Shown one piece after another: positions 1-12,158 of a DNA stretch of 12,158 nt. Location: the NCBI GenBank assembly GCA_016209865.1, contig JACQVL010000164.1, forward strand, positions 1-12,158, read 5' to 3'. This stretch comes from Candidatus Latescibacterota bacterium (GTDB taxonomy: Bacteria > JAAXHH01 > JACQVL01). Numbering within the stretch: the first letter of the stretch is position 1; the number at the start of each line of letters is the position of its first letter. The notes under the pieces were generated by a model. That model saw nothing but the letters and a program-made list of their open reading frames with translations. It was not told the DNA's origin and ran no database searches. Made by a program: the position numbers and the translations under genes.

Positions 1-585
1 ACGCCGGGCGGGGAGCCGCCGCCCGGGCCAGGGCACGACATCCGGAGCCTGGGCGCGTCAGCCGACCTGGCGTCCATCGCCGGAGAACCCGTCCCCGTGC
101 CCGATCATCTCGCCGACCCCCAGACCACCTTAGCCACCCAGGAACAACTCAAACAGGGAGAGATCTCCCCGATCGTCACCGAGGAAACACCGTCGGAGAA
201 GGTCGGCATGGGCGGGACGGGCGGCGGCGGCAGTGGGATGAGCGGCGCCGGGGGCGGCCCAGGGAGCGGCGGAGGCGGCGGCGGGGGGGATGGCCCGCCG
301 GGCACCTGGCGGTACGACACCCCCCCCAACCCGCGCCGCCTGATCACCTCCGTCCAGCCGAAATCCCTGCGCGACATCGAGGGCACGGTGAAGTTCCGCC
401 TCCTCATCGACGAGTTCGGCACCGTCATCGACGCGATCATCCTGGAGTCCTCCGGCCACCGGGTCCTGGATGACCTCGCCCAGGAGGCGGTCCGGAAGTC
501 CACCTTCAACCCGGCGACGTTCCGAGGCCGGACGGTGAAAGCGTGGATTACGTTCGGCTACGGGTTTAAGGTCGCGAAACGGTAG
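1..585 (+). CDS. TonB-family protein, C-terminal part (5' end outside window)
   Basis: The reading frame is open from the first base, so this is the 3' part of a longer gene. The first internal start-like codon (GTG at 97) has no convincing ribosome site and is not needed. The visible protein has a low-complexity stretch very rich in Gly, with some Pro and Ser, encoded at about 208-305. A TonB C-terminal-type domain follows (about 330-582), with the family pattern of a 'G.V..R..ID..G.V..A.I..SSG...LD..A..A' core and a basic C-terminus. In this family the domain contacts the TonB box and plug of outer-membrane receptors and transmits proton-motive force from ExbB/ExbD. A Gly-rich rather than Pro/Lys-rich spacer is unusual for classical TonB and fits the diverged TonB-family proteins of environmental bacteria. 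The membrane anchor is not in view, so it could also be an AgmX-like or periplasmic TonB-domain protein. Confidence 0.8.
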   Translation, partial: TPGGEPPPGPGHDIRSLGASADLASIAGEPVPVPDHLADPQTTLATQEQLKQGEISPIVTEETPSEKVGMGGTGGGGSGMSGAGGGPGSGGGGGGGDGPPGTWRYDTPPNPRRLITSVQPKSLRDIEGTVKFRLLIDEFGTVIDAIILESSGHRVLDDLAQEAVRKSTFNPATFRGRTVKAWITFGYGFKVAKR

Positions 586-647
586 CCTTCCCCTTGTCGT
601 TCCGCCTTCCCTGCTCTCCTGCTCCTTCTCCCTACGCTATCCTTGCA

Positions 648-672
648 GTCATTCCCGCGAAATCGGGAATCC
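648..672 (+). repeat. ATTCCC-N8-GGGAAT palindromic dispersed repeat, copy 1
   Basis: The core at 651-670 reads ATTCCCGCGAAATCGGGAAT. With its flanks (GTC before, CC after) it matches the copy at 7648-7672, read on the opposite strand, in 24 of 25 positions. This is the common proteobacterial-type repeat (dRS3-like ATTCCC-N8-GGGAAT) whose accidental translation gives 'VIPAKAGIQ' or 'SRESGNP' peptides. It lies 24 bp upstream of the -24 element of the usp-fhs promoter. Confidence 0.85.
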
Positions 673-693
673 ATCTCTCGACATTCCACTGTC

Positions 694-710
694 TTGGCAT
701 AGTTGTTGCA
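694..710 (+). promoter_or_regulatory. Sigma-54 (-24/-12) promoter of usp-fhs
   Basis: The sequence TGGCATAGTTGTTGCA (695-710), preceded by T, matches the RpoN consensus YTGGCACGRNNNTTGCW except at two positions (C to T and G to A after TGGCA). The GG (696-697) and GC (708-709) dinucleotides have the obligatory spacing. The predicted transcription start is near 721, giving a leader of about 86 nt before the usp start at 807. This implies that an enhancer-binding ATPase is required, and one is encoded downstream at 3540-4901. Confidence 0.8.
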
Positions 711-806
711 GTGATTCTTGTAGGGGCATGATGGACGGTGTCTCGCCCCGGGCGATTGAGGAACGGGTGACATGCTGTTGAATCTTCTTTCAACGAGGTG
801 CAATTC

Positions 807-1601
807 ATGATCCGGACGATGCTGATTCCTGTCGAAGATGGCGTCCATGGGGTGGTCGCCTATGAGCATCTCTGGCGGTTCGCCGCCCTCTATCAGGCGC
901 GGGTGTATGGCGTCCGCGTGATCGACCCGGCCGCGGTCGAGTCCGGGCTGCACGAGACGGCGGAGGCTCAAGGCCTGCTCGAAGAGGATGCCCGGCAGCG
1001 GCTGGCGGAGTTCGAGACGCTCTGCCAGACACGGGGACACCGGAGCAAGGCTGAGTTGATCATCGGGAATTTTGTCGAGGAGGTCGTCGCCAGCAGCCAG
1101 AAAGCCGACTTCCTGATCATCGGGGAAGCCGTCTCGGCACGAGGGGACAAGGACCGCCCGCGTGTGGAGGTCGTTCACCAGGTACTTCGCAAAGTGGCCA
1201 AACCCACCCTGATCGCCCGCAAGGGGTATGAACAGTTGAGACGGATTCTGGTGGGGTATGACGGGAGCGAGAAAGGGGGGCATGCGCTGCAACTCGCTGC
1301 GGATATGGCTGAGCGGACATCTGCCAGGCTGACGGTGGTGGCCGCGTGCGAGACCGCCCAGCAGGGCGCGCCTCTGGTCGATTGGGCGACCGCCTACCTG
1401 GAAAGCTACCGGCTCTCGTGGAAGCCAGTGTTGCTGGAGACAACCCCGAATGAGGCGATCACGCAGACCGCGCACGATGAAGGGGCGGACCTGGTCATCA
1501 TCGGTTCCCACGGGAAGAGCCGTCTGCATGAACTGGCGTTCGGGAGCACGACGAACCATGTGCTCGAATACGTGCGTGCATCGATCCTGATCTACCGATA
1601 A
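807..1601 (+). CDS. Tandem universal stress protein (two Usp domains)
   Basis: A 264-residue cytoplasmic protein with two alpha/beta Usp domains (about 1-138 and 145-264). The second domain keeps the nucleotide-binding set: D152 in 'VGYDGS' and the G-2x-G-9x-G-S motif at 233-247 (GSHGKSRLHELAFGS), so ATP binding is expected there. The first domain lacks this motif (GEAVSARG at the equivalent place) and is probably structural or non-binding. I chose ATG 807 because GAGG (795-798) sits 8 nt upstream. A GTG at 798 in the same frame overlaps that ribosome site and is unlikely. The gene is the first of a pair with fhs (16-nt gap) behind a sigma-54 promoter. Usp proteins of this kind bind ATP or AMP and are induced by starvation, hypoxia or respiratory stress; the actual ligand here is unknown. 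Confidence 0.93.
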   Translation: MIRTMLIPVEDGVHGVVAYEHLWRFAALYQARVYGVRVIDPAAVESGLHETAEAQGLLEEDARQRLAEFETLCQTRGHRSKAELIIGNFVEEVVASSQKADFLIIGEAVSARGDKDRPRVEVVHQVLRKVAKPTLIARKGYEQLRRILVGYDGSEKGGHALQLAADMAERTSARLTVVAACETAQQGAPLVDWATAYLESYRLSWKPVLLETTPNEAITQTAHDEGADLVIIGSHGKSRLHELAFGSTTNHVLEYVRASILIYR

Positions 1602-1617
1602 GAAAGGAGCATGGTGC

Positions 1618-3312
1618 ATGGTGTCAGACCTGGAGATCGCCCAACGCGCGACGCTGCGTCCGATCCTGGCGATCGCGGAAGAACTGGGCTTGCGGAGTGA
1701 GGAAGTCGAGCTGTACGGCCGGTATAAAGCGAAAATTCCTCTCGACACGCTGGAACGGCTGAAAGACCGGCCATCCGGGAAATACATCATCGTCACGGCC
1801 ATCACCCCGACGCCGTTAGGCGAGGGGAAGACGGTGACGACGGTTGGGCTGACGCAGGGCCTCCGGAAGGCCGGAAAACGGGCGACCGCGGTCATCCGGC
1901 AGCCGTCGTTAGGCCCGGTGTTCGGGATCAAAGGGGGCGCGGCGGGCGGGGGATACGCCCAGGTCGTGCCGATGGAAGACCTGAACCTCCACTTCACCGG
2001 CGACTTTCATGCGGTCTCCCTGGCTCATAATCTCCTCGCAGCGATGGTCGATGCCCACCTGATGCACGGGAACGCCCTCGACCTCGACCCTTCGACGATC
2101 ACCTGGACACGAGTCCTGGACGTCCTCGACCGATCCCTGCGCCATATCGTCATCGGACTGGGCGGCCGCCAGAACGGGATTCCCCGCGAAGCCTCGTTCG
2201 ATATCACCGCCGCGTCCGAAGTGATGGCCATCCTCGGCCTGACGACCGGGCTGAACGACCTGCGGGAGAGACTGGGGCGGATCGTGGTCGGGCTGAACCG
2301 GGCCGGAAAGCCGGTGACGGCGGACATGCTCCAGGCGGCGGGCGCGATGGCGGTCCTCCTGAAAGACGCCATCAAGCCCAACCTCATCCAGACGTTAGAG
2401 GGCGGGCCTGCACTCGTCCATGCCGGGCCGTTCGGCAACATCGCGCACGGGTGCAGCTCCATCTTAGCCGACCGGCTGGCGCTCCGGCTGAGCGAGTACG
2501 TGGTGACGGAGAGCGGGTTCGGGGCCGACCTCGGGTTCGAGAAGTTCTGCGACATCAAATGCCGGACGAGCGGGCTGATGCCGGATGCCGCGGTCATCGT
2601 CTGCACCGTCCGCTCGCTCAAGGCGCACAGCGGCCTGTACCACATCATCCCGGGGAAACCGCTCGATCCTGGCCTCACCAGGGAGAACGTGGAGGCCATC
2701 CAGGCCGGGGGAACGAACTTAACGAAACAGATCGAGAACGTCCGGCTGTTCGGCGTCCCGGTCGTCGTCGCCATCAACCGGTTCGAGACGGACACGGACC
2801 GGGAGATTGCGGTGATCCAGCGGCTGGCGCACGACGCGGGAGCGACTGACGTGGCGGTGAGCGACGTCTGGGCGCGCGGCGGGGACGGTGGGATCGACCT
2901 GGCGAACGCGGTCGTCCGGGCCGCCAGCCAGCCGCACGACTTCCGGTTCCTCTACCCCCTCGACGCGACGATCCAACAGAAGATCGAGACGATCGCCAGC
3001 CGGGTCTACGGGGCGGAACGCGTCCACTACGAACCCGACGCGAAGAAGAAAATCCGGCTCTACCAGAAACTCGGTCTCGACCGACTGCCCGTCTGCATGG
3101 CCAAGACCCAGTATTCGTTGTCGCACGACCCGGCGCTCAAAGGACGGCCATCCGGCTACGTGCTGCCGGTCATCGACATCCGCGCGTCTGTCGGCGCCGG
3201 GTTCCTCTACCCGATCTGCGGCGAGATCATGACGATGCCCGGACTCCCCTCTGTCCCGGCCGCGACGAAGATCGACCTGGACGCGGACGGCCGGGTTGTG
3301 GGGCTGTTTTGA
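1618..3312 (+). CDS. fhs: Formate-tetrahydrofolate ligase (10-formyl-THF synthetase)
   Basis: A 564-residue enzyme of typical family length. It catalyses formate + THF + ATP to 10-formyl-THF + ADP + phosphate; in the reverse direction it can release formate and make ATP. The P-loop TPTPLGEGKT lies at 63-72. Family signature 1 (GIKGGAAGGGY) is at 103-113, followed by 'PMEDLNLHFTGD'. Family signature 2 is recognisable but diverged (VCTVRSLKAHSG, where Ala/Gly-Leu-Lys-x-Asn/His-Gly-Gly is usual). The start ATG 1618 has AAAGGAG (1604-1609) 8 nt upstream; an ATG at 1611 is out of frame. The gene is spaced only 16 nt from usp and is surely cotranscribed with it. The enzyme feeds the folate C1 pool for purines, fMet and serine, or forms part of a Wood-Ljungdahl methyl branch or a reductive glycine route. 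No folD or other pathway gene is in view to decide between these. Confidence 0.97.
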   Translation: MVSDLEIAQRATLRPILAIAEELGLRSEEVELYGRYKAKIPLDTLERLKDRPSGKYIIVTAITPTPLGEGKTVTTVGLTQGLRKAGKRATAVIRQPSLGPVFGIKGGAAGGGYAQVVPMEDLNLHFTGDFHAVSLAHNLLAAMVDAHLMHGNALDLDPSTITWTRVLDVLDRSLRHIVIGLGGRQNGIPREASFDITAASEVMAILGLTTGLNDLRERLGRIVVGLNRAGKPVTADMLQAAGAMAVLLKDAIKPNLIQTLEGGPALVHAGPFGNIAHGCSSILADRLALRLSEYVVTESGFGADLGFEKFCDIKCRTSGLMPDAAVIVCTVRSLKAHSGLYHIIPGKPLDPGLTRENVEAIQAGGTNLTKQIENVRLFGVPVVVAINRFETDTDREIAVIQRLAHDAGATDVAVSDVWARGGDGGIDLANAVVRAASQPHDFRFLYPLDATIQQKIETIASRVYGAERVHYEPDAKKKIRLYQKLGLDRLPVCMAKTQYSLSHDPALKGRPSGYVLPVIDIRASVGAGFLYPICGEIMTMPGLPSVPAATKIDLDADGRVVGLF

Positions 3313-3314
3313 TC

Positions 3315-3328
3315 GGTGGTCGGTAGTC
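3315..3328 (+). repeat. Heptamer tandem repeat at the fhs stop codon
   Basis: Two head-to-tail heptamers, GGTGGTC and GGTAGTC, begin 2 nt after the fhs stop. Related heptamers follow the stop codons of the response regulator (4905-4922) and the CoA-transferase (9375-9387). Confidence 0.75.
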
Positions 3329-3374
3329 ACCAGAAATACCCTTGCCTGTCTGGAGAAAACGTGTACATTGGACA

Positions 3375-3509
3375 CAGTGACGAGTGACGAGTAAGTCTCA
3401 TTCTCTGAAACAGGGGGGTATGGTTGTCCTTCCCGTGAAGAAGATGGAAGGAGCCATCATTTGCTCTTGCTAACTCGTCACTCGCCACTCGTCACTCGTC
3501 ACTGTTTTT
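3375..3509 (+). terminator. 18-bp perfect inverted repeat plus T5 between fhs and the response regulator
   Basis: CAGTGACGAGTGACGAGT (3375-3392) is exactly complementary to 3487-3504, which is immediately followed by TTTTT (3505-3509). Both arms are built from GTGACGA heptamers; the right arm has an extra degenerate unit (from 3474). The 94-nt loop is long for an intrinsic terminator, so it could instead be an attenuator, a cruciform or simply an inverted repeat cluster. It ends 30 nt before the regulator start and therefore separates usp-fhs from the regulator gene. No strong sigma-70 or sigma-54 promoter is evident in 3313-3539. Confidence 0.5.
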
Positions 3510-3539
3510 CTATCCCACTGCGAGGAGGCGCTCATTCCT

Positions 3540-4901
3540 ATGCCGCACGACACCGCCCCCAGCATTCTGATCGCTGACGATGAACCGGAGATTCGGGAGG
3601 CACTCGCCCGGATCGTCAAGAAACAAGGACTGACCCCGCGGTTCGCCGCAGACGGCCGGGAGGCCCTCGACATCCTGCAATCGTCCCACGTCGACGTCTT
3701 GCTGGCCGACCTCCGGATGCCTCGGATGGATGGCCTCGAACTGCTGAAGGCGACGAAGACGATCAAACCGGACGTCGAGGTGATTCTGCTCACCGGGCAT
3801 GGGAGCGTCGAGGATGCGGTCGAGGCCATCAAGGCGGGGGCGTACGATTTCATCTCGAAACCCCCGCGCAAAGCGCTGATCGAGAAAGTCATCGCACGAG
3901 CGGTGGAGAAACGCCTGCTCGCCCTGGAAAATCAGCGCCTCCGGGAACAACTCGACGCGTTCCAGAGCGGGCAGACGATCATCGGGACGAGCCCGACGAT
4001 GAAGAAGATCATGGATACCGTCCGCCAGGTCGCGTCGAGTGCGGCCACCGTGCTCATCCAGGGAGAGAGTGGAACGGGGAAGGAGCGGATCGCGGACGCG
4101 ATCCATGCGTACAGCGCGCGCAAGAACGCCTCGTTCATCAAAGTGAACTGCGCCGCGCTGCCGGAAACCCTGCTCGAAGCGGAACTCTTCGGCCATGAAA
4201 AGGGGGCGTTCACCGGCGCGTCCACCCGGCGCATCGGCCGGTTCGAATCCGCCCATCAGGGCACCCTCCTCCTGGATGAGGTCAGCGAGATGAGCCTGGC
4301 GATGCAGGTGAAGCTCCTCCGGGTCCTGCAAGAAGGGGAGTTCGAGCGTCTGGGGAGCACGAAAACCATCCAGGTGGACGTCCGGCTGATCGCGGCGACC
4401 AACACCCACCTCCCCGACCTGGTGAAGACAGGCAAGTTTCGGGAAGACCTGTTCTACCGGCTGAACGTCATCACCCTGACGATTCCTCCGTTGCGTGACC
4501 GGCCCGAAGACACCCCGCTCCTCGCGCATCACTTCCTCCGCCTGTACGCCCGGAAGAACGAGAAGCCGGTCGAACGCATCTCCGAACAGACGATGGATCA
4601 CCTGATCCGGTATCCCTGGCCGGGCAACGTCCGCGAACTGGAGAACGTGATCGAGCGGGCGGTGGTGATGAGTACCTCGTCGGAGATCACCCCGGATGAC
4701 CTGCCCGGATCGATCACACAGACCGCCAGCCGGACAAAGCACTTGATGATTCCGATCGGCACTCCCCTCCCGGAGATCGAAGCCCAGGTCATTCGCGCGA
4801 CCCTGGAGTACGTCGGCGGGAACAAGAACGTCGCTGCCGGACTGTTGGGGATCGCCAGCCGGACGATCTACCGGAAATTGGACAAGTCGAACGGGTCGTG
4901 A
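3540..4901 (+). CDS. NtrC-family sigma-54-dependent response regulator
   Basis: A 453-residue protein with three domains. The receiver (1-120) has the acidic pocket D13/D14, phospho-acceptor D57, T85 and K107. The AAA+ sigma-54 interaction domain (about 147-380) has Walker A GESGTGKE (175-182), an intact GAFTGA loop (222-227) that contacts sigma-54, Walker B GTLLLDE (241-247) and the arginine-finger region FREDLFYRLNV (300-310). A Fis-type helix-turn-helix lies at about 415-448 (NKNVAAGLLGIASRTIYRKL). All residues needed for phosphorylation, ATP hydrolysis and promoter opening are present. ATG 3540 is served by GAGGAGG at 3522-3528 (11-nt spacing, slightly long). Its gene converges with the PAS histidine kinase gene; the stop codons are 39 nt apart. 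Likely targets are the three sigma-54 promoters in this window; that link is inference. Closest general types are NtrC, ZraR and AtoC, and a specific name is not justified. Confidence 0.95.
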   Translation: MPHDTAPSILIADDEPEIREALARIVKKQGLTPRFAADGREALDILQSSHVDVLLADLRMPRMDGLELLKATKTIKPDVEVILLTGHGSVEDAVEAIKAGAYDFISKPPRKALIEKVIARAVEKRLLALENQRLREQLDAFQSGQTIIGTSPTMKKIMDTVRQVASSAATVLIQGESGTGKERIADAIHAYSARKNASFIKVNCAALPETLLEAELFGHEKGAFTGASTRRIGRFESAHQGTLLLDEVSEMSLAMQVKLLRVLQEGEFERLGSTKTIQVDVRLIAATNTHLPDLVKTGKFREDLFYRLNVITLTIPPLRDRPEDTPLLAHHFLRLYARKNEKPVERISEQTMDHLIRYPWPGNVRELENVIERAVVMSTSSEITPDDLPGSITQTASRTKHLMIPIGTPLPEIEAQVIRATLEYVGGNKNVAAGLLGIASRTIYRKLDKSNGS

Positions 4902-4904
4902 GCC

Positions 4905-4922
4905 GGTGGTCGGTGGTCGGTC
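4905..4922 (+). repeat. Heptamer tandem repeat between convergent regulator and kinase genes
   Basis: GGTGGTC GGTGGTC GGTC starts 3 nt after the regulator stop. It occupies nearly half of the 39-bp convergent spacer. It is the same heptamer as at 3315 and 9381. Confidence 0.8.
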
Positions 4923-4940
4923 AAGTGGAGCGCAACCGTC

Positions 4941-6077
4941 TTACGCGCCATGCTCCTCCGCCAGGGGTAACCGAATCGTCACGGTCGTGCCCACGCCTCC
5001 GGCGCTCTCCAGGCTGATGCTCCCCCGGTGTTCCTGGATGACCTGCTGGGCGTACGTGAGGCCGAGTCCCGTCCCCATCGCCTTCGTCGTGTAGAATGGC
5101 TGGAAGACCTGGTCGAGGTGCTCCGACGAAATCCCCACCCCGGTATCCTGGAACCGGACCTCCGCGCACTGCTCCCGATGTGACGCTTCGACGCGCAACT
5201 CCCCGCCTTCTGACATCGCCTGGAACGCGTTACGGACGACGTTCAGGATCGCCTGTCTGGCCTGCTGTTCGTCGATGAGCACGCGGAGCGGGGCATCCGG
5301 GAATTGCCGGATGAGATGAATCCCCTGACCCGTCGCTTCGCGTTCGATAAAACGGCACACGTCCATCAGCAGCCAGGTCAAGGAGTACACCGTTTTGTCC
5401 TGCCGGGGCATGTGCGCGAAGTGGAGGTATTCCTCGATCACCAGGTTGAGGCGGTCGATCTCTGACAGGATCGTCGTGAACAGTCCTTTCACGTCATCCC
5501 GCGCGCCCACGTCGCTGCGCTTTACCTCATCCGCCAGTAGCTCGACGTTGAGGCCGATCGAGCTGAGTGGGTTTCTGATCTCGTGGGCGACCTGTGCCGC
5601 CATCTTGCCGATCGTCGCCATGCGTTCGGATTGCAGCAGTTGATCGCGCATCCGTTCCTGCTCAGTGATATCACGGATGATGGCCAGACTCCCGATGAGA
5701 CGCCCGTCGTCGTCCCGGATGGCGCTGCGCGTGAGGTCGATGGTGATGTGCTGGCCACTCTTGGTCACCCGCTGCGTCCGGTAATGCGTGAGGTAGCCGT
5801 GCGTTTCGACCTCGCGCTGAATTTGCTCCAGTTCTCCGCTGGCGAGATGCTCTGGTGGGAGGAGCCGGTGGAACGTCTGTCCGATCATCTCGTCAGCAGT
5901 ATACCCGTAGATCAACTCCGCGCCGTGATTCCACTCCTGGATGACGTTCCCGGTATCTATCACGATGATCGCGTCCGCGGAATTCTGCAGGATCGTCGCA
6001 AAATACCGGTCTTGCTCCTGCAGTCTCGCTTCCAGTCGTTCTCGTTGCGTTCGTTCGACCAGCTCCTGCTCCGACAT
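4941..6077 (-). CDS. Soluble PAS-domain sensor histidine kinase (NtrB-like)
   Basis: A 378-residue protein with no membrane segment. A short charged helical leader (1-24) precedes a PAS domain (about 25-138, ending 'AIIRDITE'). The HisKA domain has the H-box AHEIRNPL with phospho-acceptor H165. The HATPase domain has the N-box around N279/N283, G1 DTGVGI (311-316), F-box PFYTTK (327-332) and G2 GTGLGL (335-340). It is therefore a cytoplasmic sensor, probably of a small ligand, a redox cofactor or a partner protein, since no heme- or flavin-binding signature is obvious in the PAS domain. I chose ATG 6077 because AAGGGG (6087-6092) is 9 nt away; ATG 6086, three codons earlier, abuts that site. 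A further in-frame extension to 6326 has a non-protein-like Arg/Ser/Pro composition and is excluded because it overlaps the 69-residue gene upstream. It is the presumed partner of the regulator at 3540-4901. Confidence 0.95.
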   Translation of the reverse strand: MSEQELVERTQRERLEARLQEQDRYFATILQNSADAIIVIDTGNVIQEWNHGAELIYGYTADEMIGQTFHRLLPPEHLASGELEQIQREVETHGYLTHYRTQRVTKSGQHITIDLTRSAIRDDDGRLIGSLAIIRDITEQERMRDQLLQSERMATIGKMAAQVAHEIRNPLSSIGLNVELLADEVKRSDVGARDDVKGLFTTILSEIDRLNLVIEEYLHFAHMPRQDKTVYSLTWLLMDVCRFIEREATGQGIHLIRQFPDAPLRVLIDEQQARQAILNVVRNAFQAMSEGGELRVEASHREQCAEVRFQDTGVGISSEHLDQVFQPFYTTKAMGTGLGLTYAQQVIQEHRGSISLESAGGVGTTVTIRLPLAEEHGA

Positions 6078-6090
6078 ATCGGACATCCCC

Positions 6091-6300
6091 TTACTCGTCG
6101 AACCACGGCTCCTGCGCGTCTTCGGCCTGGCGGCAGTCGTCGCCGGACAAGCGACAGCGACGCTTGACGCATTCCGCATCCGCACCGAGGCACTGATACG
6201 TCCGAACCGGGAAGTCGGTGGCATCCCGCTCGAGGATCTCCAGGGTCGTCCACTTCTCCCGGAGATAGCAATAGAGGAGCCGAACAGATTGGGTGGCCAT
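6091..6300 (-). CDS. Small Cys-rich hypothetical protein (69 aa)
   Basis: I do not recognise a family. ATG 6300 has an excellent ribosome site, GAAGGAGG (6306-6313), 5 nt upstream. The stop lies 4 to 13 nt before the kinase start, indicating translational coupling. The protein is hydrophilic. Its C-terminal half has four cysteines with symmetrical spacing CX6CX4CX6C (C37, C44, C49, C56), plus C11 near the N-terminus. The end is acidic (AEDAQEPWFDE). There is no signal peptide or membrane helix. The spacing would suit binding of a metal or Fe-S cluster, or disulfide chemistry, but this is not a motif I can name. Its place between ald and the sensor kinase makes a role as an accessory sensor or kinase modulator plausible; that is inference. 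Confidence 0.75.
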   Translation of the reverse strand: MATQSVRLLYCYLREKWTTLEILERDATDFPVRTYQCLGADAECVKRRCRLSGDDCRQAEDAQEPWFDE

Positions 6301-6317
6301 GGCAGCCTCCTTCTTCT

Positions 6318-6345
6318 ATTTCCCATTTCCCATTTTCTATTCTCT
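6318..6345. repeat. ATTTCCC heptamer repeat between ald and the 69-aa gene
   Basis: Two exact ATTTCCC units (6318-6331) are followed by two degenerate units (ATTTTCT, ATTCTCT). They fill most of the 44-nt spacer and touch the ald stop codon. On the coding (minus) strand the array reads GGGAAAT and precedes the ribosome site of the small gene. The sequence differs from the other heptamers here, but the period is the same. Confidence 0.75.
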
Positions 6346-7460
6346 CACAGGACCTCGCTCAGTGTCCTGGCCTTCCGTCCATGCGCTAAGGCGACGGCTT
6401 CGTTCGTCAACGCCCCGGAGCAGATGTTGATGCCTTTGGCAAAGCCGGGGTCCTGGATCGTCGTCTGAACAAGGCCGGAGGCGGCCACCCGCGTGATCGC
6501 GCTCAGGGCGCTGTTCGTCAGGGCGTGCGTCGCCGTCCGGGCGACCTTGCTCGGGATGTTGGGGACGCAGTAGTGAATGACCCCTTCCTCGATGAAGGTC
6601 GGGGCGGAGTGATGCGTCGGATGGCTGGTCTCGACGCACCCGCCCTGATCGACCGCGATGTCGATGATGACGGATTTGGGCTTCATCGTCCGCACCATCT
6701 CCCGCGTGACCAGATGGGGAGCGCGCGCGCCGTGGACGAGCACCGCGCCGATCAGGACATCCGCGTAACTCGCCGCGCGGGCGATCGTGTAGTCATTCGC
6801 CATCATCGTCATCACCCGTCCGTCGAAGAACCGGTCGAGCCGCTGGAGCACCCGCAGGTCGTGGTCGAGGACGGTCACATGCACGCCGAGACCGACGAAC
6901 GCCCGCGCGGCGTTCGACCCGACGACGCCTCCTCCCAGGATGACCACCTGCGCAGGCGGCACGCCGGGGACTCCGCTCAGCAGGACACCCTTCCCGCCGT
7001 TCGTGCTGTCCAGCAGACTGGCGGCGATCTGCGGGGTGATGCGCCCGGCGATCTCGCTCGTCGGCAAGAGAACGGGCAGTCGCCCGTCCGGCCCCTCGAT
7101 CGTCTCGTAGGCGATCGCCTCCACCTCGCGCTCGGACAAGGCATCGATCAACTCACGCGGGGCGACCGCCAGGTGCAGGAACCCGAAGAGCATCTGGTTC
7201 CGCTCGATCAACGGGTACTCAGGCGGGGCCGGCGCGGCCACTTTCAGGATCATCTGGGCACGGCTGTACACCTCCTGGGCGGAGTAGACGACCTCAGCGC
7301 CGGCTTTCCGGTACTGCTCGTCCGTGAACCCGCTGGCCGCTCCCGCCTCGGTCTGGACGTACACGCGATGGCCCTGATGGATGAGCGTGACGACGCCCGC
7401 TGGGGCCAGTCCGACGCGGAACTCATCCCGCTGGATCTCTTTCGGTATGCCGATATCCAT
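6345..7460 (-). CDS. ald: Alanine dehydrogenase (NAD-dependent)
   Basis: A 371-residue protein of the usual length for the family. It catalyses L-alanine + NAD+ + H2O to pyruvate + NH4+ + NADH, reversibly. It begins with the family start 'IGIPKEIQRDEFRV'. Catalytic and substrate residues known from Mycobacterium Ald map well: R15, K73, H96 (in GFLHLA) and D271 (DIAVDQGG). The Rossmann motif GGGVVGSNAA lies at 176-185. ATG 7460 has GAGGGGAG about 7 nt upstream on the minus strand. The gene sits behind a sigma-54 promoter (7601-7616) with a leader of about 130 nt that still contains a remnant of a usp gene. The 69-residue protein and histidine kinase genes follow in the same direction. In other bacteria Ald is induced by starvation or hypoxia, and it either recycles NADH by aminating pyruvate or catabolises alanine. 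Confidence 0.96.
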   Translation of the reverse strand: MDIGIPKEIQRDEFRVGLAPAGVVTLIHQGHRVYVQTEAGAASGFTDEQYRKAGAEVVYSAQEVYSRAQMILKVAAPAPPEYPLIERNQMLFGFLHLAVAPRELIDALSEREVEAIAYETIEGPDGRLPVLLPTSEIAGRITPQIAASLLDSTNGGKGVLLSGVPGVPPAQVVILGGGVVGSNAARAFVGLGVHVTVLDHDLRVLQRLDRFFDGRVMTMMANDYTIARAASYADVLIGAVLVHGARAPHLVTREMVRTMKPKSVIIDIAVDQGGCVETSHPTHHSAPTFIEEGVIHYCVPNIPSKVARTATHALTNSALSAITRVAASGLVQTTIQDPGFAKGINICSGALTNEAVALAHGRKARTLSEVL

Positions 7461-7493
7461 AACACGCTCCCCTCTTCGTATCGGGTGATGGCA

Positions 7494-7586
7494 TCACTCA
7501 CGCATCTCCGGCGGTCGAACGGTCAGCACAGGGCAAGGGGCTTTCCGGACGACCCGTTCTGCCGTACTCCCGATGATAATGATTCG
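7494..7586 (-). pseudogene. C-terminal remnant of a universal stress protein gene
   Basis: Read on the minus strand, 7586-7494 encodes about 30 residues ending in a TGA at 7496-7494. They include GSTAERVVRKAPCPVLTVR, the hallmark Usp C-terminus: the GS of the ATP motif, then the last helix and strand. The frame is closed by a stop (about 7595-7593) just upstream, and no N-terminal Usp coding is present, so the first roughly 80 percent of the domain is gone. The fragment differs clearly from the intact usp at 807-1601 (there GSTTNHVLEYVRASILIYR), so it is not a recent copy. It lies in the leader of ald, 33 nt upstream of the ald start. This suggests an ancestral usp-ald operon that parallels usp-fhs. 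Confidence 0.7.
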
Positions 7587-7600
7587 TACCCTTCACTCTG

Positions 7601-7616
7601 AGCAACAATCATGCCA
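7601..7616 (-). promoter_or_regulatory. Sigma-54 (-24/-12) promoter of ald
   Basis: On the minus strand this reads TGGCATGATTGTTGCT. It fits TGGCACGRNNNTTGCW except for one C-to-T change; the base before it is G instead of a pyrimidine. GG is at 7615-7614 and GC at 7603-7602, with correct spacing. The predicted start is near 7590, leaving a leader of about 130 nt to the ald ATG. The -24 half matches the usp-fhs promoter (TGGCAT), as does the TTGTTGC around -12. Confidence 0.75.
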
Positions 7617-7647
7617 CGGCTGTTTGACCCGTCTCCCAGTGTGATCT

Positions 7648-7672
7648 GGATTCCCGCTTTCGCGGGAATGAC
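7648..7672 (-). repeat. ATTCCC-N8-GGGAAT palindromic dispersed repeat, copy 2
   Basis: The core at 7650-7669 reads ATTCCCGCTTTCGCGGGAAT. Read on the minus strand it matches copy 1 (648-672), flanks included, with one mismatch in 25. It is 33 bp upstream of the ald -24 element, in the same orientation relative to its promoter as copy 1 is to the usp-fhs promoter. Peptides such as VIPAKAGIQ read from it are artefacts. Confidence 0.85.
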
Positions 7673-7767
7673 AATAATGACAATAGAGAAGCAATACCTT
7701 GTATGAATCCTGATTGGAAGAACAAGGATCGTGTGAAGTCGGATGTTCATGCGTTGCGGAATGTCTT

Positions 7768-7862
7768 GACAATTTGTCGATGTTTTCGGTCACGGGAGCG
7801 AGACCGGAGACATTTTGTCAAGCCGGAACGGGCCAGAATCGGGGTCGGGAGGACATTCTGTC
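7768..7862. promoter_or_regulatory. Three phased GACA-N3-TGTC palindromes (candidate shared enhancer)
   Basis: The sites are GACAATTTGTC (7768-7778), GACATTTTGTC (7809-7819) and GACATTCTGTC (7852-7862). Start-to-start spacing is 41 and 43 bp, about four helical turns each, so all would face the same side of DNA. The middle site is about 199 bp from the ald -24 element and about 191 bp from the CoA-transferase -24 element. This is the expected architecture for upstream activator sites of an NtrC-type protein serving two divergent sigma-54 promoters. Binding by the regulator encoded at 3540-4901 is inference. Confidence 0.6.
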
Positions 7863-7869
7863 AATATCC

Positions 7870-7999
7870 CGGATGACACTGATCCTCTCCATCCCCACTC
7901 CCCGCCTCACGGATGACACTGATCCCCCTGCCTGAGCGACTCCGGGAAGGGTTGAGAGGGGATTAGCGTCATCCGGAGTGCTCATCTGTGTCATCTGTG
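7870..7999. repeat. ATGACAC(T/A)GAT direct and inverted repeats
   Basis: CGGATGACACTGATCC occurs at 7870-7885 and again, identical, at 7910-7925 (40-bp period). An inverted copy with 14 of 16 matches lies at 7960-7975. A tandem TCATCTGTG pair (7982-7999) gives a further inverted ATGACACAGAT. The array fills the space between the palindrome cluster and the CoA-transferase promoter. It could be a dispersed intergenic repeat family or a second set of protein sites. Confidence 0.7.
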
Positions 8000-8002
8000 A
8001 TT

Positions 8003-8019
8003 CTGGCACAGGGATTGCT
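8003..8019 (+). promoter_or_regulatory. Sigma-54 (-24/-12) promoter of the CoA-transferase gene
   Basis: CTGGCACAGGGATTGCT matches YTGGCACGRNNNTTGCW at all but one defined position (G to A after TGGCAC). GG is at 8005-8006 and GC at 8017-8018. The predicted start is near 8030, 36 nt before the ATG at 8066. It is the best of the three sigma-54 promoters in the window. Confidence 0.88.
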
Positions 8020-8065
8020 CGATAGAAGGGAGAGCGTGGAGTGAGAAAAAAGGGTGGAGCGAGAG

Positions 8066-9361
8066 ATGAACTGGCTACACGAGTATCGCAGCCGGGTGAC
8101 GACGGTGGACGAGGCACTGCGCGTCGTGGAATCCGGCCATCGGGTGTACGTCGGGAACGGCTGCGGCGCGCCGCAGCCGCTGGTCACCGCCTTAGCGAAC
8201 CGGGCCGCGGCCCTCCGGTCGGTTGAGATCGTCCATCTGATGACCTTAGGCGAGGCGCCGTACGCCGCGCCTGAGATGGCCGGACACTTCCGGCATCAAG
8301 CGTTCTTCATCGGGGAGAACGTCCGGTCGGCGGTCAACGAGGGGCGGGCGGATTTTATCCCCATCTTTCTTTCCGAGATTCCCCGGCTGTTCACGGACGG
8401 GAGCCTCCCGATCGACGTGGCGATGATCCAGGTGTCTCCCCCGGATGAGCACGGGTTCTGCAGTTTCGGGGTGTCCGTCGATTGCACGAAACCGGCGGCG
8501 GAGTCCGCTCGGATCGTCATCGCCCACGTGAACCCGCAGATGCCCAGGACCTTAGGGGATAGCTTCATCCACGTGAGCAAGCTCGACGCCGTCGTGGAAT
8601 CCGACGAACCCCTGCCCGAGCTCCCCAGATCGCCCATCTCTGACGTTCAGCGACGGATCGGCCAGCACGTCGCCGCGCTGATCGAGGATGGATCGACCCT
8701 GCAGATGGGCATCGGCGGGATTCCGGACGCGGTGCTGTCCAACCTGACGGAGAAACGCGACTTAGGGGTTCACACCGAGATGTTCTCAGACGGGATCGTC
8801 GACCTGATCGAGGCGGGCGTGATCACGAACGAGCGAAAGACACTCCATCCCGGCAAGGTGGTGTCGAGCTTTCTGTTGGGGTCGCGGGTGCTCTACCAGT
8901 TCACCGACAACAACCCGATCATCGAACTCCATCCGTCCCACTACACGAACGACCCGTTCATCATCGCCCAGAACGAGCGGATGGTCGCCATCAACTCTGC
9001 GATCGAGGTCGACCTGACCGGGCAGGTGTGCGCGGATTCGATCGGGCCGCGTTTCTACAGCGGGATCGGCGGGCAGCTCGACTTCATCCGGGGCGCGGCG
9101 CGGTCGAAGGGCGGGAAGCCGATCATCGCTCTGCCCTCGACGGCGAAGAACGGCCAGGCGTCCCGCCTCGTGCCGTTCCTGACGCCAGGCGCCGGGGTGG
9201 TGACGACGCGAGGGGACGTCCACTACGTCGTGACGGAGTACGGGACGGCGTTCCTGCACGGGAAGAGCATCCGGCAGCGCGCCCGGGCGTTGATCGACAT
9301 CGCCCATCCCGACTTCCGGGACAGCCTGGAAGCGTTCGCGCGAGAGCGGCACTACGTGTGA
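8066..9361 (+). CDS. Acetyl-CoA hydrolase / CoA-transferase family protein (4-hydroxybutyrate CoA-transferase-like)
   Basis: A 431-residue protein of the class I acyl-CoA transferase family containing 4-hydroxybutyrate, butyrate and succinate:acetate CoA-transferases and acetyl-CoA hydrolases. Its N-terminal half (1-190) and C-terminal half (195-431) are the two family domains. The CoA-binding loop GIGGIPDAVL is at 215-224. The catalytic glutamate is E238 in 'LGVHTEMFSDG', the same position as E238 of clostridial 4-hydroxybutyrate CoA-transferase, where it forms the glutamyl-CoA thioester. The C-terminal 'VVTEYGTAFLHGKS' (388-401) is also typical. ATG 8066 is preferred over GTG 8054 because GGAG (8056-8059) lies 6 nt upstream. 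It is monocistronic under its own sigma-54 promoter and converges with the cytochrome block. The substrate cannot be read from the sequence: acetate/acetyl-CoA, succinate, butyrate or 4-hydroxybutyrate are all possible. Confidence 0.92.
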   Translation: MNWLHEYRSRVTTVDEALRVVESGHRVYVGNGCGAPQPLVTALANRAAALRSVEIVHLMTLGEAPYAAPEMAGHFRHQAFFIGENVRSAVNEGRADFIPIFLSEIPRLFTDGSLPIDVAMIQVSPPDEHGFCSFGVSVDCTKPAAESARIVIAHVNPQMPRTLGDSFIHVSKLDAVVESDEPLPELPRSPISDVQRRIGQHVAALIEDGSTLQMGIGGIPDAVLSNLTEKRDLGVHTEMFSDGIVDLIEAGVITNERKTLHPGKVVSSFLLGSRVLYQFTDNNPIIELHPSHYTNDPFIIAQNERMVAINSAIEVDLTGQVCADSIGPRFYSGIGGQLDFIRGAARSKGGKPIIALPSTAKNGQASRLVPFLTPGAGVVTTRGDVHYVVTEYGTAFLHGKSIRQRARALIDIAHPDFRDSLEAFARERHYV

Positions 9362-9374
9362 AGAGCGGAACACA

Positions 9375-9419
9375 GTGGTCGGTGGTCAATGAGAAGAGAC
9401 AAAGAAGACTACTGACCAT
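9375..9419. terminator. Hairpin between convergent CoA-transferase and membrane-protein genes
   Basis: GGTCGGTGGTC (9377-9387) can pair with GACTACTGACC (9407-9417) over 11 positions, two of them G-U when read as plus-strand RNA, around a 19-nt loop. One flanking T-A pair and one further wobble can extend it. The left arm is the GGTGGTC heptamer; the right arm overlaps the stop codon of the minus-strand gene. No T-run follows, so a role in ending or protecting the convergent transcripts is only plausible. Confidence 0.4.
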
Positions 9420-9591
9420 GCCCCAGCAACGACCACAGATAAAAGCCGATACCCGCGACCAGAAACACCAGACCAGATGCTACAAAGACTATGAAGGCAA
9501 TCGGATGAGTCCAGAACAACGTGACCGTCTCGATGAACAGTCCGATCAGCACGAGGATGCCCGCGATTTGAACGCGCCGTTGGGTCGTCAT
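9409..9591 (-). CDS. Small two-helix membrane protein (60 aa)
   Basis: The start overlaps the stop of the NapC-like gene as ATGA (9591-9588), the classic sign of translational coupling, which supports it as a real gene. The 60 residues form a basic N-terminus (MTTQRRVQ) and two hydrophobic helices (about 9-28 and 32-56), with the C-terminus ending HGQ. No cysteine, heme motif or known domain is visible. Its size and position suggest an accessory subunit or assembly factor for the membrane-anchored cytochrome; this is inference. I do not recognise the family. Confidence 0.75.
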   Translation of the reverse strand: MTTQRRVQIAGILVLIGLFIETVTLFWTHPIAFIVFVASGLVFLVAGIGFYLWSLLGHGQ

Positions 9592-10268
9592 TCTTGGGTC
9601 TCCGCTTGAGTCGCCGTCGTGTCCGCCTGAGCACGCTTCGGAGGAATCCCCGGCTTCCAGAACTCCACATCCTGCAATTCCTTCACGTTATGGATGACGT
9701 CGTGACAATTGCTGCTCAGACAGGAGAGTTCGTTGACTTTCACGGCAGCCAGGGTAGTCTCATCCTTTCTATGGTACTTACTCTCTTCAAAACTGCGCGA
9801 GCCTGCATGGCAGTGTAAACATTCCCGGTTGTTGTACGGGGTGTACAGCTTGAGGGTCTGGGGGGCTGTCCCGAAGTACTGGGCATACACATGCTTGACT
9901 CCCCGAATTTTTGCGCTGATGTCGCCATACAGCGTGTAGTCCGTATGGCACGTATAGCAGGCCTGCTCACGGGGGATACGGTTGTTCTGGAAGTGTTGGG
10001 CCGGGACGAACTCGTTATCGTCCACGTACAGGCTCTTGCCATAATCCGCCATAGGATGGCACGACAGGCAAAACTCCGTCTTCTTCGACAGCTCGATATG
10101 TTCGGACATCCCCGCCCATCCGATCACCAGCGGCAGGAGAAAGATGGATAGGAACGCCATGATTCTCCCTCCTCGCTCCATGGCGGCCGGCGGTCTGACG
10201 GCGATCGTCAGGATCAGTCCCATCGTGAACGCAATGAGGATGATGAGTAAGGCTAATGGGGTGACCAT
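9588..10268 (-). CDS. NapC/NirT-like tetraheme membrane cytochrome c (quinol dehydrogenase type)
   Basis: A 226-residue protein with two N-terminal hydrophobic helices (about 4-24 and 37-53), the second likely anchoring a periplasmic heme domain. Heme sites are CLSCH (67-71), CYTCH (104-108), CLHCH (150-154) and CLSSNCH (183-189). The last has CX4CH spacing, a rarer but known form. The first reads CXXCHXM, the pattern seen in NrfH-type proteins, where the Met ligates heme 1. Candidate distal His ligands include H57, H92 and H126. Family members oxidise quinol and pass electrons to periplasmic or outer-membrane partners. The C-terminus is a hydrophilic Gln/Ala/Thr tail. The ATG at 10268 has GAGGGAG just upstream. 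It is coupled to the 60-residue membrane protein gene. No nitrate or nitrite reductase gene is adjacent, so the partner is more likely the cytochrome c or heme-porin encoded upstream. Confidence 0.9.
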   Translation of the reverse strand: MVTPLALLIILIAFTMGLILTIAVRPPAAMERGGRIMAFLSIFLLPLVIGWAGMSEHIELSKKTEFCLSCHPMADYGKSLYVDDNEFVPAQHFQNNRIPREQACYTCHTDYTLYGDISAKIRGVKHVYAQYFGTAPQTLKLYTPYNNRECLHCHAGSRSFEESKYHRKDETTLAAVKVNELSCLSSNCHDVIHNVKELQDVEFWKPGIPPKRAQADTTATQAETQE

Positions 10269-10321
10269 AGTCTCCCTCTATGACGCTAACGCTCCGAGGT
10301 TTGAGGACCCCGAGATGTATG

Positions 10322-10350
10322 ATAAAGGGCGGGGACAACAGGCCCCGCCC
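10322..10350 (-). terminator. GC-rich hairpin downstream of the monoheme cytochrome gene
   Basis: A perfect 8-bp stem, GGGCGGGG (10327-10334) with CCCCGCCC (10343-10350), has an 8-nt loop. On the minus strand it is followed by TTTAT (10326-10322). It lies 39-62 nt past the cytochrome stop codon and before the NapC-like gene. It may end or attenuate the upstream transcript, setting the cytochrome apart from the membrane pair. The T-run is short, so partial read-through is likely. Confidence 0.6.
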
Positions 10351-10388
10351 CTGACACGAGGAACGATCCAGACAATAGGGGTCAACCC

Positions 10389-10793
10389 TCATTTTTTGCC
10401 GGCGCTCCCGGATTTCATCGTGGCTAACCATTTCGACAGGGTGTCGAGCTCCTCCGTACTTCCCTTGAACTTCTTCTCATGCTTCTTGCCGTCGATCGTT
10501 TCTTTCTTGAGCAGGAACTTCGCGATCCAGTCGGCCGTGCGCTTGGTGCCGACGCCGGATAAATCCGGAGCATCCTCCTCGCCGGATTCAGCGCTCACTT
10601 GCTTCTTGATGCCCGCCGCCTGGAGGGAATGACACCCGTTGCACTCAAACTTGGTGAAGATGGGCTTCGCGTCTTTCGGCTTCCCTTCCTGGGCGAGGGA
10701 CACGGCGGTCGAGAAAGTCACGAGGAACGCAACCCCCATCACCGCCGCGATGCCCGTCAACACCGCCACGATAAAGGCTGAATCTCTTTTCAT
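10389..10793 (-). CDS. Monoheme c-type cytochrome, periplasmic
   Basis: A 134-residue precursor. Residues 1-34 form a Sec-type signal (MKRD, a hydrophobic core, probable cleavage near 'VSLA'). The mature part has one heme site, CNGCH (51-55), followed by 'DAPDLSGVGTKRTADWIAKFLL' features and a C-terminal helix typical of small class I cytochromes c. The usual axial Met position before the last helix is not occupied: that region reads KKHEKKFKGS. The only mature Met is M126, inside or after the helix, so the sixth ligand may be H105 or an unusual Met. I chose ATG 10793 because AAAGGA lies about 8 nt upstream and a signal peptide begins at once; an in-frame extension to 10880 would place 29 non-signal residues in front. 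It probably shuttles electrons between the NapC-like protein and the heme-porin. Confidence 0.88.
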   Translation of the reverse strand: MKRDSAFIVAVLTGIAAVMGVAFLVTFSTAVSLAQEGKPKDAKPIFTKFECNGCHSLQAAGIKKQVSAESGEEDAPDLSGVGTKRTADWIAKFLLKKETIDGKKHEKKFKGSTEELDTLSKWLATMKSGSAGKK

Positions 10794-10885
10794 ACAGTCG
10801 TCCTTTCTGATGAGATTTGGATAATCAAGATGAACAATCGTTGTCGCCCCTACGAATCCATAACCAGTTTTGATCGTCAACTACT

Positions 10886-10914
10886 TCTATACAGCAAATC
10901 CTCGAAGCTGGCAA
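10886..10914 (-). promoter_or_regulatory. Sigma-70-type promoter of the monoheme cytochrome gene
   Basis: On the minus strand, TTGCCA (10914-10909) and TATAGA (10891-10886) are separated by exactly 17 nt. They match the -35 consensus at 5 of 6 and the -10 at 4 of 6 positions. The start would be near 10879, giving a leader of about 85 nt to ATG 10793. It lies downstream of a hairpin that could end the heme-porin transcript. Confidence 0.45.
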
Positions 10915-10923
10915 GGATAACAT

Positions 10924-10956
10924 GGAGGGACGATGCCTGCTCCTCATCGTCCCCCC
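10924..10956 (-). terminator. Hairpin downstream of the heme-porin gene
   Basis: GGGACGATG (10927-10935) pairs perfectly with CATCGTCCC (10945-10953) around a 9-nt loop. Two more G-C pairs are possible beyond one mismatch. It begins about 17-20 nt after the porin stop on the minus strand. The following bases (TCCATGTTATCC) lack a proper T-run, so it may be an RNA-stabilising or weak termination hairpin. Confidence 0.45.
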
Positions 10957-10972
10957 ACCGTCTCCCCAGTCG

Positions 10973-12158
10973 TTAGAACATCGTCCGCAGGTTGAGGTAC
11001 AGCTTGTCAACCTTCTGGGCAGACGGGATGTCTAACAGGTTCTTCTCGTAATACACGGACGCCCGGAAGTTCTGGTTGATGACGTACGTCACCGCCGGGA
11101 CGATCCGGTGGTACTCGATGACGGGTTTCCCGCTCGCCAGCTTGTTGTCCGACGAATACTTGTCGTAGTGCAGCCCCAGATGCACCATCCGCCTGGGCAT
11201 GTACCCGCCCTCGAGCGCCACGCCTTTATACTTAAACTCCGTGGCCGGAGTGGTGACCAGGCCGCGGTTCTTGTCCTTGCCGAACACATAGGCGGCCTGC
11301 ACGTCGACCTGATCGTAGTACCGGATGTTCACCTGCGGAGAGATGCGGGTGAACTTGTTCTCGATCTGCGTGGCGGTGCCCGTCCCTTTCGTGTCCGTCC
11401 CCATGTAGTAATGGACCGTGGCCGTGGTGCCCTCGAAATCCCCGGCGACATCAGTCGCCCGCAGGACGAGCCCTGTCCAGTACTGCGGGAACTGGTTCAC
11501 ATCGGTCGCTTTCGTGCCGGGGGACATTCCGGCGTACACCAGCGCCCAGTCATTCCGGCCATAATACTGAACGCCGGGACGCGCGCTCGACATATCGATC
11601 GACTCTTCGCCCGCGCCGTTGGAGGATTTGATGAGCATCACCTCGCCTTTAATGTTCGGGAGTTGCGGCAGCCGGTTCGGGTACGAAGCGAACTCGAGCG
11701 GCGAGATGTTCCCCACCTGGAAGTTCAGGCCCCTGGAATCGGCCACGTTCGTGAAGTTGAAATAGAACCAGTTGAACTTGAAGGCGCTTTGTGCATACTC
11801 CAGCTCTGAGAAGAAGGAGATGTCCCTGTAAATCGAACCGGCGACAAACATCTGAATCCACAGCGGACTCCCGACCGTCAGCCGCGTGTCTTTGTCCGCA
11901 GGCGGCGCCTTCTTCTGCAACGAATGGGTTTCCATCATCACGGGCGTCATGTTGAGCCTGAACCCGAACAGGTTGTTCACTGACTCGATAAAGACCCCTT
12001 TGCTGTTCCCGTTTTCCGATTCACCTTCGACGGCCTGTTCGCGACCCGACACGGACGGAGCCGCCTTTCTGCGGCTGCTCGCCAACTGGTACCCGTTGCG
12101 CAGGTAGTCCTCACCGGATTGGTTGAGGCGCGGGAAGACGGAATGGCACGAGTTGCAC
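10973..12158 (-). CDS. Heme-motif plus outer-membrane beta-barrel protein (cytochrome-porin fusion), 5' partial
   Basis: The frame is open to the window edge, so the N-terminus is missing; the first ATG-like codon inside (TTG 12085) is not the start. The visible 394 residues begin CNSCH (codons 12157-12143), a c-type heme site, followed at close distance by 'FPRLN..G..Y..NGY'. That spacing resembles the CxxCH...FPxLNxFGxxF..GY segment at the N-terminus of Cyc2-type fused cytochrome-porins and related heme-tagged porins. The rest is a beta-barrel with alternating hydrophobic strands and many aromatic girdle residues. It ends in LYLNLRTMF, the C-terminal Phe signal for BAM-dependent outer-membrane insertion. 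Likely role: passing electrons across the outer membrane, with the heme sitting in the barrel. A porin whose heme motif merely marks the N-terminus is an alternative. It stands upstream of a monoheme cytochrome and a NapC-like protein on the same strand. Confidence 0.7.
   Translation of the reverse strand, partial: CNSCHSVFPRLNQSGEDYLRNGYQLASSRRKAAPSVSGREQAVEGESENGNSKGVFIESVNNLFGFRLNMTPVMMETHSLQKKAPPADKDTRLTVGSPLWIQMFVAGSIYRDISFFSELEYAQSAFKFNWFYFNFTNVADSRGLNFQVGNISPLEFASYPNRLPQLPNIKGEVMLIKSSNGAGEESIDMSSARPGVQYYGRNDWALVYAGMSPGTKATDVNQFPQYWTGLVLRATDVAGDFEGTTATVHYYMGTDTKGTGTATQIENKFTRISPQVNIRYYDQVDVQAAYVFGKDKNRGLVTTPATEFKYKGVALEGGYMPRRMVHLGLHYDKYSSDNKLASGKPVIEYHRIVPAVTYVINQNFRASVYYEKNLLDIPSAQKVDKLYLNLRTMF

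Follow-up and report, generated by a model that had tools for sequence, protein, structure and literature searches.

Four genes at a contig end

Contig JACQVL010000164.1 (C109) belongs to a Candidatus Latescibacterota assembly (GCA_016209865.1) of 3.75 Mb that is 83% complete, and its full 12,158 bases make up the window analyzed here. At one end of the window, four consecutive minus-strand genes encode a beta-barrel, a monoheme cytochrome c, a NapC-like cytochrome and a two-helix membrane protein; together, they are read here as a candidate conduit for electrons across the cell envelope. This quartet, listed in the initial annotation, was borne out by the open reading frames (ORFs) of the window, by matches to the PF00034 and PF03264 families and by relatives of the barrel.

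The barrel gene (10973..12157, minus strand), recognized from its ORF, homology and an AlphaFold2 model, encodes a fused cytochrome-porin, or heme-barrel, of which 394 amino acids are seen before the gene is cut off at its 5ʹ side by the contig end. Because the window is the complete contig, the missing 5ʹ end is not recoverable from it; profile searches of the host genome for a further barrel piece found none. At the N-terminal edge of the visible protein lies the heme c attachment motif CNSCH (12143..12157, minus strand), followed by SVFPRLN and invariant across 34 aligned relatives. Seven residues (C1, C4, H5, F8, P9, R10 and L11) are invariant in the barrel alignment, and full-length relatives carry, by inspection, a signal-like hydrophobic N-terminus that ends right before the heme motif. 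No family was assigned to the barrel by Pfam and NCBIfam scans, and a sequence-profile comparison with solved structures gave no convincing match. The AlphaFold2 model, built from 32 aligned sequences, has 16 strands (mean predicted local distance difference test score [pLDDT] 85.3; predicted template modeling score 0.85), and its top Foldseek matches in the PDB are the 16-stranded porins OmpU, PorB and OmpF-type proteins, with E-values from about 1e-11. The protein is therefore predicted to be a 16-stranded outer-membrane porin, in agreement with the heme-bearing barrel first proposed.

The barrel has a broad distribution. A scan of genome contigs with the window's barrel protein alone gave no match. 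A first relative from a different phylum showed the identical order of barrel, monoheme and NapC-like genes, and a wider search added four more. A profile built from six relatives and scanned against named genomes then retrieved about 34 loci with near full-length relatives; the full-length relatives from other phyla number about 36. The clade spans at least ten phyla, its carriers being labeled in their depositors' titles as Ignavibacteria, Bacteroidetes, Kiritimatiellales, Eisenbacteria, Caldithrix, Aminicenantes, Nitrospinota, Nitrospirae, Acidobacteria, Deltaproteobacteria, Lentisphaerae and Elusimicrobia. The window's barrel is 53–60% identical to an Ignavibacteriota-rich group and about 29–41% identical to other members, and in a 57-row tree it sits inside this 11-row group (100/100).

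The adjacent gene (10389..10793, minus strand) encodes a class I monoheme cytochrome c of 134 amino acids counted from the ATG, predicted to be secreted or N-terminally anchored. The protein matches PF00034 (27.7 bits; cut-off 21.3), and its AlphaFold2 model has the class I fold (pLDDT 81), with structural matches that include SoxX and MtoD (4xxl, Z 7.5); Z scores of 7.5–8.1 are middling. His105, in a KH...FKG motif (codon 10479..10481, minus strand), is predicted to replace Met as the distal heme ligand. It is invariant in alignments A4 and A7, falls one residue before the Met of an aligned Met-type relative and belongs to a KH/QH motif present in 24 of 24 homologues. Since this invariant His lies near the usual Met position and the homologues share no invariant Met, the alignments suggest bis-His ligation, as in MtoD. 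A low potential for the window's cytochrome was considered and dropped, since MtoD, described in PMC4412085 as a bis-His monoheme, has a potential of +155 mV.

The third gene (9588..10268, minus strand) encodes a 226-residue NapC/NirT-family cytochrome with two N-terminal hydrophobic helices, a feature found as transmembrane-like segments in all seven NapC-like sequences compared. It matches PF03264 (44.4 bits; cut-off 24.1), but scored far under the cut-off of every NCBIfam NapC, NrfH and TorC model, and a search of solved structures with its profile gave no match. The original label of tetraheme holds in that four heme motifs are present; only three are CXXCH, however, and the fourth is CX4CH (CLSSNCH), a form shared by several relatives, while others have CXXCH. 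The first motif, CXXCHxM, is invariant in alignment A5 (C67, C70, H71 and M73). The start of the fourth gene (9409..9591, minus strand) overlaps the NapC-like stop by 4 bases, and its 60-residue product is a two-helix membrane protein to which a Pfam scan assigned no family. Such an ORF, defined as one of 45–110 amino acids with exactly two hydrophobic segments and a start at or near the NapC-like stop, comes immediately after the NapC-like gene at 16 of the 19 loci. Of the 499 control ORF ends taken from these loci, 3 are followed by one; because the controls include spurious ORFs, the contrast is indicative and not exact. Two of the three loci that miss the ORF show one at a lower threshold. 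The recurrence upholds the assignment of this protein as a partner of the NapC-like cytochrome.

Linkage and exchange of modules

Conserved linkages connect the genes of the window across genomes. The monoheme gene lies directly downstream of the barrel gene in 19 of the 38 barrel loci, a NapC-like gene lies no more than 4.5 kb from the barrel in seven of the 38, and in a further genome, G406, a NapC-like gene is possibly close to the barrel. Moreover, the set of barrel, monoheme and NapC-like genes recurs in several unrelated genomes. These linkages support the early arrangement of an inner-membrane quinone module, a periplasmic shuttle and an outer-membrane heme-porin, as one conserved trans-envelope set.

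Parts of the set also adjoin other redox genes. The barrel–monoheme pair lies next to a Rieske protein gene in one locus (L040) and next to QrcA/QrcB-like genes in another (L042). In genome G099 (L162, C6), the monoheme–NapC pair stands beside a DmsE/MtrA decaheme cytochrome (204.8 bits) and an MtrB/PioB porin (34.4 bits) on the opposite strand. In G001 and G013 (L158 and L159), both from the window's own order, the monoheme–NapC–two-helix unit adjoins a gluconate-2-dehydrogenase subunit 3 gene and a GMC oxidoreductase gene. In G005, G002 and G015 (L160, L161 and L166), a NapC-like gene without the monoheme has an octaheme cytochrome as its neighbor; the octaheme cytochrome of L160 (G005), the only one of these loci scanned, weakly resembles hydrazine dehydrogenase (77 bits; cut-off 900). 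In G369, a NapC-like gene without the monoheme lies beside NapA (1072 bits). This interchange of modules is the main reason for reading the window's genes as one conduit.

Two inverted repeats lie between the genes, one with 13-nt arms and a 9-nt gap between barrel and monoheme (10923..10957, neither strand assigned; repeat scan), which a terminator scan did not find to be a T-run terminator, and a G+C-rich one with 8-nt arms between the monoheme and NapC-like genes (10327..10350, likewise unstranded). A CoA-transferase gene is the convergent neighbor of the four-gene set. Positions 1–9361 of the window encode a TonB C-terminal domain protein, a universal stress protein, formate–tetrahydrofolate ligase, a sigma-54 response regulator with a sensor kinase, alanine dehydrogenase and the CoA-transferase, with no obvious link to the conduit; the alanine dehydrogenase is closer to those of other phyla. 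The conduit end (window 10001–12000) has a G+C content of 0.556–0.585, compared with 0.60–0.67 across the remaining contig, which would fit a transferred barrel gene but is not proof of one.

Electron flow and alternative readings

In the proposed conduit, the outer-membrane fused heme-porin would exchange electrons with an extracellular partner that is soluble or small, the periplasmic monoheme cytochrome would ferry them across the periplasm, and the tetraheme NapC-family protein with its two-helix partner would exchange them with the inner-membrane quinone pool. Electrons would on balance move inward, from a donor outside the cell to quinone, and the host's NapA-type and NrfHA genes may supply the sink by reducing nitrate and nitrite. 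This reading as a whole, with its weak commitment to the inward direction, is put at a probability of roughly 0.6. The genes, their families and the conserved linkages are observed and the 16-strand fold is predicted; partnership, direction, substrate, heme attachment and localization are inferred.

The host genome holds other redox systems. At C194:6000-25000 (L131), a NapC-like paralogue accompanied by a two-helix ORF lies beside a NapA-type molybdopterin oxidoreductase (652 bits, below the cut-off of 904), NrfH and NrfA. The initial annotation took the lack of a terminal reductase at the locus as pointing to an extracellular partner; this argument proved weak, because the host genome carries the NapA-type and NrfHA genes elsewhere. 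On contig C134 (L169, 1–16000), MtrA-type (255.1 bits) and MtrB/PioB (350.9 bits) genes lie beside QrcAB-like genes and form a putative second extracellular electron conduit. The L169 cluster comprises an MtrA/DmsE-type 11-heme cytochrome, an MtrB/PioB porin, two monohemes, QrcA- and QrcB-like proteins and two-component regulators. Searches of the host genome for heme-copper oxidase (COX1) gave one partial match below the family cut-off and those for CdhC (acetyl-CoA synthase) gave no match, both weak negatives because the assembly is incomplete.

Dehydrogenases and Qrc normally feed electrons into quinone, and the dehydrogenase and Qrc-like neighbors therefore favor uptake, which is placed modestly ahead of export. 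A reversed conduit, in which the NapC-like and two-helix proteins would oxidize quinol, the monoheme would pass electrons out and the porin would deliver them to Fe(III), humics or a partner cell, is rather unlikely. It fits poorly with the nearest same-order monoheme–NapC–two-helix units (G001 and G013), which adjoin a dehydrogenase, and with the Qrc-like genes next to the barrel–monoheme pair in L042. However, several observations favor export and count against inward flow: NapC-family proteins mostly oxidize quinol, as CymA does, the host's NapC-like paralogue adjoins a NapA-type reductase, and no heme-copper oxidase exceeds the family cut-off in the host genome. Furthermore, Fe(III) reduction or genes for extracellular electron transfer are reported for some Ignavibacteriota and Calditrichota in PMC6137239, and both groups include barrel carriers. 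On the other side, a single-heme porin would be ill suited to insoluble acceptors, as argued for Cyc2 in PMC8406198. Both directions are mechanistically possible, since the NapC-family protein ImoA is proposed to work one way in its host and can work the other way in Shewanella (PMC13390432).

The linkage counts and the wider record also weigh against the favored reading of an inward conduit. Half of the barrel loci have no adjacent monoheme and most have no nearby NapC-like gene, so the four-gene set is a minority form; no biochemical work on any member of the barrel clade was found in the literature searched; and autotrophy through acetyl-CoA synthase is without CdhC support in the 83% complete genome. 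It is improbable that the monoheme–NapC–two-helix unit serves a periplasmic enzyme and that the heme-porin is a recent neighbor with a job of its own, such as taking up small molecules, sensing through heme or dealing with peroxide. Such separate tasks would accord with relatives that differ along the contig. The genomes covered include 16 of the host phylum. The monoheme and NapC-like genes lie close to counterparts from the same order and the barrel does not, a pattern that, with the alanine dehydrogenase nearer to other phyla, bears on whether the window contig may be mis-binned. The barrel nests in the Ignavibacteriota-rich clade, the monoheme is nearest to same-order genes and the NapC-like gene is nearest to the genes of an Acidobacteria member, of the same order and of G099. 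The set is therefore a mosaic, and same-order genomes retain the monoheme–NapC–two-helix unit without the barrel. Yet the barrel–monoheme linkage across phyla, the three-gene set in unrelated genomes and the invariant heme motif all speak against a porin with a task of its own. A broader form of the inward conduit is unlikely, though conceivable as a tentative generalization: a widespread and hitherto unnamed route for anaerobic electron uptake, with a single-heme porin and a bis-His monoheme cytochrome that would pass electrons to a quinone reductase of four helices, made up of the NapC and two-helix proteins, and that different lineages would plug into different electron sources.

Relation to Cyc2, NapC and Mto systems

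By architecture, Cyc2 is the nearest described relative of the barrel clade. Keffer et al. (PMC8406198) present Cyc2 as an Fe(II) oxidase with a fused 16-strand porin, a CXXCH motif, PXL at +4 and the motif AXPXFAR[Q/K][T/Y], which lies 5 residues upstream of CXXCH and is called unique to Cyc2. Like Cyc2, members of the barrel clade exceed 365 amino acids, are predicted 16-stranded porins and have a single N-terminal CXXCH with PXL at +4 (34 of 34 aligned rows; CNSCHSVFPRL in the window). Unlike Cyc2 of clusters 1–3, they carry the upstream variant A-x-S/T/A-x-W/F (33 of 33 relatives), in which S, T or A replaces P and W usually replaces F. The Cyc2 motif itself was found in none of the 33 full-length relatives, and the window's matching segment lies beyond the contig end. 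In the 57-row tree, the barrel clade is monophyletic (99/98) and separate from AxPxFAR-type rows, and its genes, in contrast to those of Cyc2, are often linked to monoheme and sometimes to NapC-like genes. Because the defining motif is missing, the clade is Cyc2-related and not Cyc2 by that definition; the early description as a Cyc2-like heme-porin stands for the architecture but not for the motif or the phylogenetic placement.

The NapC-like protein resembles NapC, NirT, NrfH and CymA in exceeding the PF03264 cut-off, in its CXXCHxM first motif and in its four hemes, and differs from them in its two N-terminal hydrophobic segments, its often CX4CH fourth motif and the recurrent two-helix gene beside it. 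The parts are of known kinds, and their combination across many phyla is undescribed in the open-access literature searched: no account of a Cyc2-type porin together with monoheme and NapC-like genes was found there, in a search that covered neither subscription journals nor preprints and whose outcome is not proof of absence. This clade of heme-porins would escape screens that demand the Cyc2 motif in its strict form, and extracellular electron transfer may therefore be under-counted in many uncultured phyla. Additionally, the recurrent two-helix partner of this NapC subfamily is a concrete component unnamed in Pfam, and carriers labeled close to cultured lineages (Melioribacter, Caldithrix) offer a route to direction and substrate.

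The system closest in layout is the Mto pathway of Sideroxydans (MtoAB, MtoD/PmcA and ImoA). In PMC13390432, its NapC-family member ImoA is a proposed quinone reducer in its host and can oxidize quinol in Shewanella. Unlike the Mto pathway, the window has a single fused heme-porin in place of the decaheme MtoA and the 26-strand MtoB, and its NapC-like protein starts with two helices and is accompanied by a two-helix partner. Neither an MtoA decaheme nor an MtoB/PioB porin appears in the ORF list or family scan of the window; such a cluster lies on C134. As in the Mto pathway, an outer-membrane conduit, a periplasmic monoheme and a NapC-family tetraheme cytochrome are clustered. The window's class I monoheme is similar in fold to MtoD and, like it, predicted to be bis-His ligated, and the set would divide its labor as MtoAB, the monoheme and ImoA are described to do.

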